From Chloroflexota bacterium (lineage in GTDB: Bacteria; Chloroflexota; Anaerolineae; DSLN01): a DNA stretch of 37,566 nucleotides. Below the pieces are notes generated by a model, which saw nothing but the letters and a program-made list of their open reading frames with translations, ran no database searches and was not told where the DNA came from. This document shows positions 20,846 to 25,854 of this stretch, one piece after another. The stretch spans positions 1 through 37,566 of the forward strand of contig CADDZL010000004.1 in NCBI GenBank assembly GCA_902812335.1, written 5' to 3'. Position 1 is the first letter of the stretch; every line of letters starts with the position of its first letter. The translations under genes were made by a program, and so were the position numbers.

Positions 20846-23800
20846 CTAAACCTCTGCCAGCAGCTTCTCCACCTGGTAACCACTCTTCCGTTCGGCCTGG
20901 TGTAGTTCGTGGATGATGCCATACACCTCCGCAACCTGTTCGATCACCCTGGCGGCCGGCTGATCGGGTTCAGCCGTCGCCTGCACCACGGCGACTAAGA
21001 GCAGCCACCACAGTAACTGGTCGAAGGCTTCCTTGTTAAACCACAGTACCCCTTTATAGCGGTTCACCTGCAGGAACTGTTGGACTTCACCGTCTTCAAG
21101 CAGGGATTGCAGGACCGGGTAAGCCCGGAGCCGGGCCACAGCCGCGGCGTTGGCGGCCGCTTCGGAAGCCCCGGCGGCCCAACCCTGGTGATTGGTCAGC
21201 ACTTTAATCAGCGTCACCGCCCGTCGGGCAGCCGGCTCGTCCACCCCCAAGTCCACCAGCGCACCGGCCATGATCCGGCCCAATCGCCATTCGTCAATCC
21301 AGCTCCGGCTCTGCGGCGCAAAGTTCACCTGGTCAGCAATCTTGCCCAATGAATGGACGCTCCACCAGCCGAGCAAGGTGCCCCAGGTGCATGGGTCGTC
21401 ATCCAGATTCGCCTGCACATATCTGACCATCGTCTGGTATAACCGGGCTGAAGCCCCGGTGCTGGGGGGCTCCGGCGCGGGGAAGCGACTCTCCAGGATA
21501 GGCACTTGTAGAATCGCTTCCAATTCGTGCCGCAGTTCTCGCGCAAGCGTGATCTCGTCCCCGACGCTATGGCTGAACTGTTTGGCCTCACGCAATAGAT
21601 GAACCATCTTCTGCTCGACTGCATCTAAGAGCGCCGCATCGAGTGATCCGCCAACCTCGATCAGCCGGGCGCTGCTAAGCCGCCGGAACATATCGGCATT
21701 CACCAACTCTTTAAATGGCTGCTGAATGGGCTGTAGGAAAAGCTCGCGCAAGGCCTCTTCGATGCTCGGCACCCCGCGTCCATCCAGGTAAGCCGCCAGG
21801 TGGGCATAATGGTGCCAGGCGTCATCTTGCACTTCCCGGAAGTCCAGGAACACCTGATACTTGAAAGCACCCAGCTCTACGTATAACCCCTGGTCGAACA
21901 ATTGCCTGCTATTGCGGATGTATTCCAGGCCCGTGATATGGTCGCGGAAAGTGCAGAAGTAGGCGGGGTCAGCGTGCAGGCCCAGGCCCTCACCCAGGGT
22001 CTTCTGGATGAGCACACGCTCATCGCCCCGCCCGCTCTTCACCGAGTAGGCCGTCGAAGTCCTGATCCAGCCACGCGTCTGTTCGTACTTGTTGTTATAC
22101 ACCACCAGCGCGCGCCCATCGCCAGCGCGGTTGGAATAAGCAAAGACGTTTTCATTGACGACGCCTTCGGGCGTGAAGAAATCGTACAAAAGGAAGTTCT
22201 GCGCATCCGCAAACAGTTCGCGGCGGCGCAGGAGGGGGAAGACCTCGCGCTCGTGGCGCTGGACCAGGTCCCAATCGGGCTGTTCATCCCAGTAGGCACG
22301 CCGGTATTCCATGCCGTATTTCTCGGCGAAGCCCTCGATCTGGCCATGCCCGAACATGGGAAGTCCGGGCATGGTGACCATCAAGATGCAAACGCCGAAG
22401 TACTTATCGTCTTTGCCGAATTGGGCTACAGCCGTTTCTTCGTCCGGGTTGTTCATGAAGTTGACGAAGCGCTTCAGGATCTCCGGGTCGAATTCCAGCA
22501 CGTTCTTGATGGTGGCGCGGTACTTAGCATTCTCCTCGTTCTTTAACATATTCATGAAGGCGCTGTTATAGACGCGATGCATCCCCAGGGTGCGGACAAA
22601 GTAGCCTTCCATCAGCCAGAAGGCTTCGGCCAGCAACAGGGTGTCCGGCGCTTCCTGCGCCACACGGTCAACGACCTCACGCCAGAATTCGTTGGGCATG
22701 GCGGCATCGAACTGGGCCTTGGTCAGTCCATGTTCAGTGCGGGAGGGAATGGCCCCGCCGGTGCCCGGTTCCGGGAACCACAGGCGCTGGTAGTGCCGCT
22801 TGGCGAGGGTCATGGCCGCATCGAAGCGGATGATGGGGAATTGCCGCGCCACGTGCAGGATGGTCTGAATGACGGCCTCGCGCACTTCGGGGTTCAGGAA
22901 GTTCAACTGGGCGGTGTCATTCCAGGGCATGCGGGTGCCGTCGTTGCCGTGATAGATGTACTTCTCTCTGCCGGTCCAGCGATCTACCCGCTTGAAGACG
23001 ACAGCGGCGTCGGTGCGCGTGTAGTAGTGGTCCTCCAGGAAGATGCCTACACGCTCATCCCAGGAGAGGTCCGGCCCATTGAAGCTGTAAGACGGGAAGG
23101 GACTGTGATCCAGCGCGATGAACCAGTCGGGGTGCTCGACCACCCATCTGGAATCAATACCCATATGGTTAGGCACCATATCGCTGGCCAGGCGGATGCC
23201 CCGCTGCCAGGCCCGCTCTCTCAGATCCCGATAGGCCGCTTCACCGCCCAGGTCAGCGGCGATCTGATAATCAAATAGCGAGTAGGCCGAAGCCACCGCC
23301 TCAGGATTGCCGGTGAGTTGTTTGATCCTCTGCGAGGCCCGGCTGCGTTCCCACAAGCCGATCAGCCACAAGCCGGTAAATCCCCAGCGTGCCAGAGTAT
23401 CCAACTCTTCATCGGGAATCTCATCCAGCCGGGTAATGGCGCGTTGATACTTCTTGGAAAGCTGGTCCAGCCAGACATAAGTGCTCTTGGCGATCATCAC
23501 CACGCGGGGCATCCAATCCCGATCGGGGCTATAGCGCTCCGGTTCCGCTTCCAGTCCGGCAAACTCCAGCACCCGGGCGGGGCCGGGGCCTGCGAAAGCC
23601 ATCCTCTCTTCTTCTTTGAGCAGGTCAAGGCTGGTGAGCAGGCGATAGAGATAGGGGCCCAACAATGCGCCCCATCTCTCCCGGATGTAGTCCAACTGGC
23701 CGGACAGCGAGTAGGGGACAGCAATCGCAGGACTGCGCAGCATGTCCACCAGGTTTTGATGGTCGGGTCCAAATTTGGGCTGGGTATCAAAGAACCGGTG

Positions 23801-24373
23801 CAAATTGAAGATGATCTGCAAGTAGGAGGTTTCCCGTTCCAACGCCGAGTCGTCGAATAGCTCCAGGAAGGGCGAAGAGGCCGGGTTCATGTTGGCCAGC
23901 CAGAGCATGAGCATCTCCTCAAGCACAATCTGGCGGTTGGGAATACCGGCTGTTTCCCTCTCAAGGTAGGCGGCGGGGTCCATCTCGCGCCGATAAACGG
24001 CCAGCGGAGGGAACTCGTCTACAAATCGGCGCAGGGTTCGGTTGAGCGCCTCTTGGCCAAGCTGCTCCAGCAGCCAATCCATCGCCTGACCCATGACCTG
24101 CGCGTTGATCTGCCGGGCATATACCCCGATCACGTAGTGGAGGATCTCGTCGATCAGGCCCATGGCGTTCAGTTCGCCGGCTTTGGCGGCCTGTTCGGGG
24201 AAACTGACCACATCGCGTTTTTGATTGATCTTTTGCGCGAACACACGCGCGGCGTGGAAGTTGGCAAAAATCACATTCCCGCTGAGCGAAAACAACGACG
24301 CATCAAACTGATAACGGTCCCGCGCCTGACGGGAAACGTGAAATTCACGGGTGACGGTTCTTTCATCGGCCAC
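20846..24373 (-). CDS. Very large GH13 alpha-amylase-family protein
   Basis: The 1,175-aa protein has a central GH13 catalytic barrel (about residues 345-760) between long, mostly helical N- and C-terminal regions without recognised domains. The GH13 sites are visible: region I ASDMVPNHMG, nucleophile D518 in IIRFDAAMT, acid/base E583 in LLLAEAFW, and third aspartate D644 in NNPDEE, where the usual N-H-D reads N-P-D. PGLPMFGHGQIEG follows. All three catalytic acids are present, so an active alpha-glucan hydrolase or transferase is likely; the exact reaction is not clear. GTG start with GGAGG eight bases upstream. A palindromic repeat is translated near residues 972-978. It lies beside the mazE remnant and downstream of the maltodextrin operon. 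Confidence 0.85.
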   Translation of the reverse strand: MADERTVTREFHVSRQARDRYQFDASLFSLSGNVIFANFHAARVFAQKINQKRDVVSFPEQAAKAGELNAMGLIDEILHYVIGVYARQINAQVMGQAMDWLLEQLGQEALNRTLRRFVDEFPPLAVYRREMDPAAYLERETAGIPNRQIVLEEMLMLWLANMNPASSPFLELFDDSALERETSYLQIIFNLHRFFDTQPKFGPDHQNLVDMLRSPAIAVPYSLSGQLDYIRERWGALLGPYLYRLLTSLDLLKEEERMAFAGPGPARVLEFAGLEAEPERYSPDRDWMPRVVMIAKSTYVWLDQLSKKYQRAITRLDEIPDEELDTLARWGFTGLWLIGLWERSRASQRIKQLTGNPEAVASAYSLFDYQIAADLGGEAAYRDLRERAWQRGIRLASDMVPNHMGIDSRWVVEHPDWFIALDHSPFPSYSFNGPDLSWDERVGIFLEDHYYTRTDAAVVFKRVDRWTGREKYIYHGNDGTRMPWNDTAQLNFLNPEVREAVIQTILHVARQFPIIRFDAAMTLAKRHYQRLWFPEPGTGGAIPSRTEHGLTKAQFDAAMPNEFWREVVDRVAQEAPDTLLLAEAFWLMEGYFVRTLGMHRVYNSAFMNMLKNEENAKYRATIKNVLEFDPEILKRFVNFMNNPDEETAVAQFGKDDKYFGVCILMVTMPGLPMFGHGQIEGFAEKYGMEYRRAYWDEQPDWDLVQRHEREVFPLLRRRELFADAQNFLLYDFFTPEGVVNENVFAYSNRAGDGRALVVYNNKYEQTRGWIRTSTAYSVKSGRGDERVLIQKTLGEGLGLHADPAYFCTFRDHITGLEYIRNSRQLFDQGLYVELGAFKYQVFLDFREVQDDAWHHYAHLAAYLDGRGVPSIEEALRELFLQPIQQPFKELVNADMFRRLSSARLIEVGGSLDAALLDAVEQKMVHLLREAKQFSHSVGDEITLARELRHELEAILQVPILESRFPAPEPPSTGASARLYQTMVRYVQANLDDDPCTWGTLLGWWSVHSLGKIADQVNFAPQSRSWIDEWRLGRIMAGALVDLGVDEPAARRAVTLIKVLTNHQGWAAGASEAAANAAAVARLRAYPVLQSLLEDGEVQQFLQVNRYKGVLWFNKEAFDQLLWWLLLVAVVQATAEPDQPAARVIEQVAEVYGIIHELHQAERKSGYQVEKLLAEV
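21442..21460. repeat. Palindromic repeat inside the large GH13 gene
   Basis: ACCGGGCTGAAGCCCCGGT is an imperfect palindrome within coding sequence, similar to the one at 13870-13885 in the GH57 gene. Confidence 0.6.
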
Positions 24374-24520: not shown

Positions 24521-24548
24521 CTATGAAAATGGGCAGCTATTTTCATAG
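24521..24548. other. 10-bp AT-rich inverted repeat upstream of the large GH13 gene
   Basis: CTATGAAAAT and ATTTTCATAG are perfect complements around an 8-bp centre, 148 bp before the GTG start. It could be an operator or an mRNA hairpin between the fusion gene and the GH13 gene; no T-tract follows on either strand. Confidence 0.5.
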
Positions 24549-24654: not shown

Positions 24655-25854
24655 TCAAGTAGCCTCACGCCTCCCAGCCCGTATCTCGGTGGACGAGATA
24701 TCCAGGCGGAAGCGGGATTCCGGGATCGCCCGGAACATGTCGGCGAAGTCAGGCGGGATGGGCACATCGGCCAGGGTATGATAGACACCCTCCACCAGGC
24801 GTCCGGCGACGAGGAAGGAGCAACCCACAGCCCGGATATCGGCCAGTGCTGCTCGCATCTGGCTCTCCTGATCGGCGTAGTAGACCGGATCCACCAGTCG
24901 CCGGGCCGTGTCGTAGCCTATGACGAAGGTGCAACCCGGGAACAGATGGGCCTTGTCCACGAACAACGGGGCATCGGTCAGCACGATACGCCAGCGACCG
25001 GCGAATTGCGCCAGCCGGCGCCGGACCTCCTCGGCGGAGAGCGGCACTTTGTCCACATTATGCACGGACAGTTCGAAGGCCACTTCCGTGCCCAGTATGT
25101 CGCCCGCGACCCGGGCCAGTTGTTCGTGCCCGATGTGCAGCGGATTGAATGCGCCGGGCAAGATTCCGCCGCGGACCGGCGCGTCCACCACCATGTGGCC
25201 GTCCGGGAAGACGGTCACGGTCTTCACTGCTCCGGCCAGCAGCCGCCGGACCGGATCATCCTGCATCACCTCTAGTGTCTCAACCTCAGTCAGGCCCAGG
25301 TCCACCGTCATGGCAAGGCCACAGGTCTCTGCCAGGGCATGCAGGATCAGGCGGCTCACGACCCCTTCTTCACCGGCCCGATCGCGCCGCCCTTTTTCCA
25401 GCTTGAGTGCGTAGATCATCGTCCCGGCAGCGGTGCGCACGGCGATGTCAGCGCGATGGTCACCCCGCTTGGGCCGGTCGGTGATAATCGTCGCAGTGCA
25501 GCCCAGGCCCACAACAGCCGTCGGTGGGCTATGGGCAGTGGGCAGTTCACCGGTCAGGGCCTGCTGTATCCTGTCCACTGCCCACTGCCCACTGTAATAA
25601 AGCGCCCGGCGGTAGGCCTGTTCCGCCAGGGCTATGGCTGTCTCAGGCGATACGTACTGCTGCGGCTCATGGCCCAGGTATTCAATCATGGCCCGCGCGC
25701 TATAGGGGATGACAACTTCTAACAGGGTTCGCGACGCACCGGGCACGCCCAGCAGCCAGGCCACTGCCTGACTGCCTGCACCGGTCACCGCCATCGCAAC
25801 CATCAGGTGAGCGGAATGGATCTGCTCGATGAGACGGTGGAGGGCTTCGTCCAC
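24655..25854 (-). CDS. CinA/PncC-like domain fused to an NMN-adenylyltransferase-like domain
   Basis: The 399-aa protein appears to be a two-domain fusion. Residues 1-160 resemble the CinA C-terminal/PncC fold (NMN amidohydrolase): VTGAGSQAVAWLLGVPGASR, EVVIPYSARAMIEYLG, VSPETAIALAEQA and GCTATIITDRPKRGDHRADI. The canonical TGIAGP reads GCTAT. Residues 228-399 form a nucleotidyltransferase of NadD/NMNAT type with GAFNPLHIGHEQ (234-245) and ISSTEIR (386-392). Together they could turn NMN into NaMN and then NaAD, an NAD-salvage route, but this is inference. GTG start. Residues about 89-108, between the two halves of the CinA-like domain, are encoded by an inverted repeat. It follows the GH13 gene closely on the same strand. 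Confidence 0.72.
   Translation of the reverse strand: MDEALHRLIEQIHSAHLMVAMAVTGAGSQAVAWLLGVPGASRTLLEVVIPYSARAMIEYLGHEPQQYVSPETAIALAEQAYRRALYYSGQWAVDRIQQALTGELPTAHSPPTAVVGLGCTATIITDRPKRGDHRADIAVRTAAGTMIYALKLEKGRRDRAGEEGVVSRLILHALAETCGLAMTVDLGLTEVETLEVMQDDPVRRLLAGAVKTVTVFPDGHMVVDAPVRGGILPGAFNPLHIGHEQLARVAGDILGTEVAFELSVHNVDKVPLSAEEVRRRLAQFAGRWRIVLTDAPLFVDKAHLFPGCTFVIGYDTARRLVDPVYYADQESQMRAALADIRAVGCSFLVAGRLVEGVYHTLADVPIPPDFADMFRAIPESRFRLDISSTEIRAGRREAT
25533..25590. repeat. Inverted repeat inside the CinA/NMNAT fusion gene
   Basis: GGGCAGTGGGCAGT (25533-25546) and its exact complement (25577-25590) enclose 30 bp. The whole element is translated in frame. Confidence 0.8.

Follow-up and report, generated by a model that had tools for sequence, protein, structure and literature searches.

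A NadD-like nucleotidyltransferase joined to a CinA-fold domain in Chloroflexota, a candidate enzyme of NAD formation

NMN deamidases of the PncC/CinA type have been described from A. tumefaciens (structure 2a9s) and T. thermophilus (structure 4ct8). According to the accessible part of PMC5384747, the A. tumefaciens enzyme (AtCinA) is inactive when carrying S31A, K63A or R145A and less efficient with Y58F, S48A or T105A, and the equivalent lysine of the T. thermophilus enzyme (TtCinA) acts as general base (PMC4246079, accessible part). Adenylyl transfer to NMN is known from human NMNAT, yeast Pof1 and cyanobacterial NMNAT-C, which share T/HxxH or HxGH motifs, with SxxxxR in Pof1; the latter two are precedents for direct adenylylation of NMN (Pof1, PMC13191266; NMNAT-C, PMC13036487; both as far as the accessible text goes). 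An NMNAT can also be fused with a NAD-recycling domain, as in NadM-Nudix (PMC3680494, accessible part), and in two-domain CinA proteins the PncC fold is itself fused with a second NAD-recycling domain, the ADP-ribose pyrophosphatase COG1058 on the N-terminal side.

The protein described here has the PncC/CinA fold over its whole first half, but its partner is a NadD-like, adenylyltransferase-like domain on the C-terminal side and not COG1058. A CinA-fold partner is not mentioned for the NMNAT families in the accessible parts of PMC13191266, PMC13036487 and PMC3680494; Pof1 and NMNAT-C were compared by description only, and the activity of the fusion protein is a predicted one. A literature search of titles and abstract openings found no description of a CinA-NadD or PncC-NadD fusion, and the accessible part of a domain-architecture census (PMC3855486) does not mention it.

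The fusion gene lies in a stretch of 37,566 nucleotides from a Chloroflexota contig (CADDZL010000004.1), which is called the window (Table 1). A first-pass annotation of the same DNA had placed the open reading frame exactly but left its strand unstated, and the three sequence elements that it quoted, GAFNPLHIGHEQ, ISSTEIR and GCTAT, are all found in the 399-residue translation. An in-frame stop codon is situated 6 nt 5' of the GTG and AGGGG is found upstream of the gene start. Pfam recognizes CTP_transf_like (PF01467) at residues 231-393 with an E-value of 6.7e-7, above the curated cut-off, and CinA (PF02464) at residues 7-84 with 2.9e-5, where 24.2 bits are barely over the cut-off of 23.5. 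A chance or artefactual reading frame was rejected because full-length homologs occur in 13 of 199 genomes of the window's class and the frame is open at all 80 loci kept from a wider search.

Table 1. Coordinates in the window of the fusion gene, its domains and the residues discussed; fractions refer to the distinct rows of the family alignment.
Feature	Position	Strand	Remark
Whole fusion gene	24655..25854	-	399 aa, GTG start, stop included
CinA C-terminal (PncC-like) fold, residues 1-180	25315..25854	-	Z 18.5, 150 aligned, 2.1 A to 2a9s_B
T24, place of catalytic Ser (S31 AtCinA)	25783..25785	-	Alignment with canonical CinA
S41, phosphate-binding Ser (S48 AtCinA)	25732..25734	-	S 77, T 11 of 88
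Y51, phosphate-binding Tyr (Y58 AtCinA)	25702..25704	-	Kept in 88/88
M56, place of catalytic Lys (K63 AtCinA, K301 TtCinA)	25687..25689	-	Alignment with canonical CinA
Insert largely private to this copy, residues 88-112	25519..25593	-	Alignment; pLDDT 63 (91-100), 56 (101-110)
GCTAT (118-122), TGIAGP region	25489..25503	-	C119 77/88, T120 83/88, A121 87/88; exact register uncertain
R157, phosphate-binding Arg (R145 AtCinA)	25384..25386	-	Kept in 88/88; aligned to R145 place
NadD/NMNAT-like nucleotidyltransferase, residues 226-399	24658..25179	-	Z 12.6 to 5vir_B; PF01467 6.7e-7
HIGH (H240-H243), ATP-handling HxGH	25126..25137	-	Both His in 88/88
ISSTEIR (386-392), phosphate-binding motif (SSTxxR)	24679..24699	-	S387 88/88; R392 87/88, one gap

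AlphaFold models reached a mean pLDDT of 86.0 with a 13-row alignment and 92.3 with a 93-row alignment, and the latter model was compared with known structures using VIA-align 2. The first half aligns closely with A. tumefaciens CinA, as the CinA C-terminal fold proposed in the first-pass annotation would predict. The second half aligns over 157 residues at 3.1 A with NadD of M. abscessus (5vir), and its Z-scores of 12.6 for NadD and 11.8 for human NMNAT (1nup), against 8.2 for the best PPAT chain, agree with the earlier preference for NadD over PPAT. A CoaD/PPAT identity of this half was rejected on that lower Z and on the score of TIGR01510, 12.4 bits against a cut-off of 103.3. On the predicted structures, the two-domain reading is right.

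The match of the NadD model TIGR00482 to the fusion is also weak, 18.3 bits against a cut-off of 112.45, and the NCBIfam PncC_domain (TIGR00199) gives no match at E-values up to 1. With NCBIfam scores for NadD, CoaD and CinA so far under the cut-offs, the fusion protein, judged by curated models, is not simply an orthologue of these enzymes. The whole family is poorly seen by current models, with PF02464 at 1e-3 detecting only 13 of 93 rows.

Residues were counted in an alignment of 93 rows, 13 from the class and 80 from the best of 440 loci, of which 88 are distinct because five are shared with class loci. The place of the catalytic lysine is occupied by Leu in 35, Phe in 32, Met in 18 and Ser, Thr and His in one row each, and never by Lys (0/88), whereas all 28 canonical CinA sequences of the class have Lys there and all 21 sampled family rows have Met, Phe, Leu or Thr. 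The catalytic serine, present in 28 of 28 canonical sequences, is replaced in 80 of the 88 rows (Ala 62, Thr 18) and kept as Ser in the other 8. The canonical TGIAGP is replaced as well, reading CTATIxTDRPKRG in most family members; the place of Thr105 of PncC is uncertain in this region, being V115 by MAFFT and C119 by ungapped counting. Altered chemistry of the first domain, suspected in the first-pass annotation, is supported by these replacements of Lys and Ser.

The Ser, Tyr and Arg that bind phosphate in the canonical enzymes are kept. With these anchors present and the catalytic Ser and Lys lost, the domain should hold a 5'-phosphate but should not deamidate by the known mechanism. New conserved residues peculiar to the first half of this family (H13, T43, E46, T120, T125, D126, K154, R159 and E162) suggest more than mere decay, and the Thr at the catalytic-Ser place of the window protein could in principle serve as a nucleophile.

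These residues bear directly on the scheme of the first-pass annotation, in which NaMN is produced from NMN by deamidation in the first domain and converted to NaAD by adenylylation in the second, for NadE to amidate. The retained phosphate-binding residues are what such a deamidase would need, but both places at which substitution inactivates AtCinA (S31A and K63A; PMC5384747, accessible part) are altered in the family. Judged by the residues, the first-domain chemistry proposed there is probably wrong, and the scheme as a whole is considered unlikely.

The second half was compared in 20 family rows (19 fused, two of them identical, and one separate) with eight NadD rows of the class. It shares with NadD (TIGR00482) the fold, HxGH, SSTxxR and the Lys of PPHK, which is NVDK in the window protein. 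Unlike NadD, it has no long C-terminal tail, ending soon after SSTxxR, and is missing the segment that precedes the Tyr-Thr motif; at the Trp loop, two extra residues stand before PxYY. The Tyr-Thr segment and the Trp of NadD are presumably the nicotinate-binding elements. Since elements on the nicotinate side are missing, a pyridine may not be the ligand of the second half, and the remodelled pocket would suit an alternative in which this half acts on another phosphorylated substrate, such as a flavin or a quinone-pathway intermediate, the loss of NadD being unrelated.

The second half carries a signature of NVDK or HVEK, FxxKA and GxDTxxRxxxPxYY that is also found outside the fusion, in stand-alone proteins of family f11 and in genome G115. 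Five f11 loci (L015, L016, L018, L019 and L020) encode stand-alone NadD-like proteins of 236-327 amino acids from the first start, with GxDTxxRxxxPxYY or nearly so, in genomes that also have canonical NadD. G115 encodes a protein of 457 amino acids (L163:2652-4025) that combines a PncC_domain scoring 135.4 bits (cut-off 68.9) with a NadD-like domain whose subtype is that of the fusion; almost the full length of this second domain is covered by a TIGR00482 match at 1e-15, below the cut-off. These intermediates tie the second half to NadD and not to CoaD. G115 shows a related pairing in another genome, which would favour consecutive deamidation and adenylylation since its first domain exceeds the PncC_domain cut-off, but even there the place of the catalytic Lys is taken by Gln.

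The 13 class genomes with a full-length homolog include that of the window; the homologs in the other 12 have 41-53% identity. Altogether 21 class genomes were matched, and the eight with partial matches (G010, G031, G077, G078, G115, G121, G158 and G174) were counted as non-carriers. In GTDB contigs, a scan detected 440 stretches coding for relatives. The 80 best were retained, and each has an open frame of 372-402 amino acids, that of L110 being cut by a contig end. By title, most records among these best 80 are Chloroflexota (Anaerolineae, SAR202 and other Dehalococcoidia, and Roseiflexus); some are Rokubacteria, and a few single MAGs carry different labels. A scan of viral contigs found no relatives of the fusion, and a search with the plant gene names At2g01220 and At3g27610, which we take to be possible relatives, gave nothing useful.

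In a sample of 400 genomes of the phylum, 60 had a match at 1e-20, including split and partial matches. Family f66 mostly has the halves as independent genes, which lie on separate contigs or, where they share one, at a large distance from each other. At 1e-20 both halves are found in 17 of 19 such genomes, the second alone in two (G209 and G551) and the first alone in none, and in four more genomes (G285, G383, G500 and G526) the halves are adjacent or overlapping genes. This co-occurrence of unlinked halves supports a joint function. In G305 each half has its own gene, the two lying some 2.9 Mb from each other on the same contig (L156:4841-5359 and L157:5423-6043), and the first half lacks Cys119 and part of the KGxRDRxGEE set.

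It could be argued from such a first half, and from the loss of known catalytic residues in the first domain generally, that the protein is degenerate or a purely regulatory mononucleotide sensor without catalysis. This is highly improbable in view of the 30 invariant columns over 88 distinct sequences, mostly polar residues or Gly, and the intact HxGH and SSTxxR.

Genes for NAD synthesis were sought in the class genomes with E-values up to 1e-15 for NadD, up to 1e-10 for PncC and below 1e-25 for NadE, weaker PF02540 matches being taken as other ATP-pyrophosphatases (one that was inspected, in G034, is MnmA). Canonical PncC is found in none of the 13 carriers compared with 164 of 186 non-carriers (Fisher 1.8e-11, a test that ignores kinship), and NadD in four of the 13 compared with 169 of 186 (1.4e-6, likewise ignoring kinship). 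The carriers are close kin, nine of the 13 belonging to one family code, and most are draft MAGs. Among high-quality genomes (at least 90% complete and at most 5% contaminated) the figures are 0 of 10 carriers against 112 of 121 others for PncC and 4 of 10 against 119 of 121 for NadD.

NadE was found in nine of the 13 carriers and is undetected in G034, G066, G093 and G113. The absences are nested, with PncC undetected in 13, NadD in nine and NadE in four, and all genomes lacking NadE also lack NadD. A tree of the fusion protein with 53 rows (the 13 from the class plus 40 named loci out of 80) served as a proxy for a species tree; on it, the 13 class rows require at least four changes in NadD state and two in NadE state. 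Among the four genomes with neither NadD nor NadE detected, G066 is 99% complete in three contigs.

Five of the nine carriers lacking NadD are 97-100% complete. Other PF01467 proteins in these nine, searched at 1e-3, were only CoaD, RibF and, in G000, an RfaE-type protein whose RfaE-domain-II match is just under its cut-off; the search is not exhaustive, since it failed to recover the fusion itself in G034. PF04095 (NAPRTase/NAMPT) gives nothing in 12 of the 13 carriers and a match over the cut-off in G180 (4.5e-6), and NadA is found in one, G150.

The lack of canonical PncC in all 13 carriers is what would be expected if a deamidating first domain had replaced it, and the nine carriers with NadE could amidate NaAD. 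However, with no detected NadE in the other four, NaAD would be a dead end there, which speaks against consecutive activities. The link to NMN metabolism made in the first-pass annotation is supported indirectly, through the absence of PncC and partial absence of NadD and NadE in class relatives; its two consecutive steps are not supported.

NadD is retained by every one of the 57 carriers that were found outside the window's class in the 400-genome phylum sample. Replacement of NadD is thus not the general role of the fusion, which is normally additional to NadD. The absence of NadD as a general trait of carriers, considered on 17 genomes (13 carriers and four others), was rejected since the phylum sample confines it to the window's class.

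The first-pass annotation had placed the gene in a sugar-uptake operon. At the window this is supported by Pfam, which identifies the neighbours as a solute-binding protein, two permeases and two Alpha-amylase-type (GH13-like) proteins. The fusion gene lies downstream of the ABC uptake set on the same strand, between the two Alpha-amylase-type genes, with the preceding one 42 nt away and the following one 281 nt away. As a conserved setting it did not hold up: the solute-binding protein, either permease and the 734-aa GH13 protein have no match near the 80 named loci (best 80 of 440, flanks up to 8 kb and often shorter). Among the loci searched for window neighbours, the sole match to the second permease (34%) is in L163, beside the PncC_domain-NadD-like protein of G115. 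Sugar metabolism as the role of the fusion was rejected because the sugar genes of the window are unmatched at the loci searched, save for this permease.

In other lineages the fusion is accompanied by genes for quinones, flavins and respiration and not by NAD genes. In the flanks of the best 80 of 440 loci, which vary in length, UbiD occurs 11 times, UbiX 13, UbiA 10, MenA-like UbiA 4 and flavin reductase 9, named by Pfam on representatives, and nuoB-like and nuoD-like genes 10 times each, named by eye. UbiX either belongs to a co-directional run together with UbiD and UbiA or, in Anaerolineae loci, is encoded on the opposite strand. In five loci of SAR202/Dehalococcoidia type (L042, L043, L050, L058 and L072) the fusion is followed by UbiD and UbiA on the same strand, with UbiX in four of the five, and from this gene order the run downstream of the fusion is an apparent operon.

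These neighbours, like the 57 carriers that keep NadD, are in line with a substrate outside NAD metabolism, as raised above for the remodelled pocket. However, the settings vary from clade to clade: among the 40 named loci on the tree, each of three settings (UbiD run, MenA-like, nuo) is confined to a single clade. A substrate of this kind would also not explain why PncC, NadD and NadE are missing from class genomes in a nested pattern. RibF is the usual FAD synthetase and is found in the same genome as the fusion in the four carriers inspected (G142, G150, G160 and G166), which speaks against a flavin. Action on another phosphorylated substrate therefore seems rather unlikely.

Taken together, the folds, motifs, residue losses and gene distribution observed here make it somewhat probable that the fusion protein is an NMN/NaMN adenylyltransferase of divergent type, whose CinA-fold domain binds a mononucleotide and does not deamidate by the known mechanism. 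In its favour are the two folds, the retained ATP motifs, the nested absences in the class, the co-occurrence of unlinked halves and the pairing in G115; against it are NadD in 57 of 57 carriers outside the class, the remodelled pyridine side, the non-NAD neighbours elsewhere, the weak NadD model scores, the kinship of the carriers with the draft state of most of them, and the rarity of PF04095 and NadA among them. For substrates and activity we infer that the C-terminal half would transfer AMP from ATP to NMN, using HxGH and SSTxxR, and form NAD; the enzyme would either prefer NMN or be dual in its substrates. Where NadE is present and NadD absent the fusion, if it is the missing enzyme, must also accept NaMN, and in carriers with NadE the C-terminal half probably also converts NaMN to NaAD.

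The ligand of the N-terminal half is most likely NMN or another 5'-phosphoribosyl compound, which this half would hold or sense in order to capture substrate or regulate the enzyme; alternatively, it might perform other chemistry on that compound with its own conserved residue set. As to the order of losses, we infer from the nesting that in some lineages of the window's class the cell would have dispensed with PncC, then with NadD and then with NadE.

A wider claim is that these proteins form an undescribed NAD-forming class across Chloroflexota and beyond, in which a NadD-derived adenylyltransferase takes NMN straight to NAD and the CinA-fold domain carries out another 5'-phosphoribosyl reaction, displacing PncC, NadD and even NadE in some lineages. 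This is possible but doubtful. NAD synthesis is essential, and the fusion is the only candidate found for the missing NadD step in nine class genomes; it would thus supply a step missing from the annotated metabolism of a phylum that is large and mostly uncultured. The first half is also a natural example of the PncC fold in which the residues for substrate binding persist and those for catalysis are gone, and might serve to test the other abilities of the fold.

A 10-bp inverted repeat is located 3' of the fusion gene (window 24521-24548, minus strand). The 51-nt stretch containing it has a folding energy of -10.4 kcal/mol (z -2.16) and 9 of 200 shuffles were as good; no terminator was called in the stretch downstream of the gene.

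At window positions 20846-24373 (minus strand) a protein of 1175 amino acids is encoded, for which an Alpha-amylase match (322-684) is the only Pfam hit. Homologs of this protein with 58-59% identity are situated a few kb from the fusion in G349 (L165/L170), G498 (L172) and G515 (L173), three of the six f102 genomes read, and are absent from the stretches of G484, G509 and G327, of which the first two end at contig ends. The named locus L107, on a Roseiflexus contig equal in length to that of G515, also has a homolog near the fusion.
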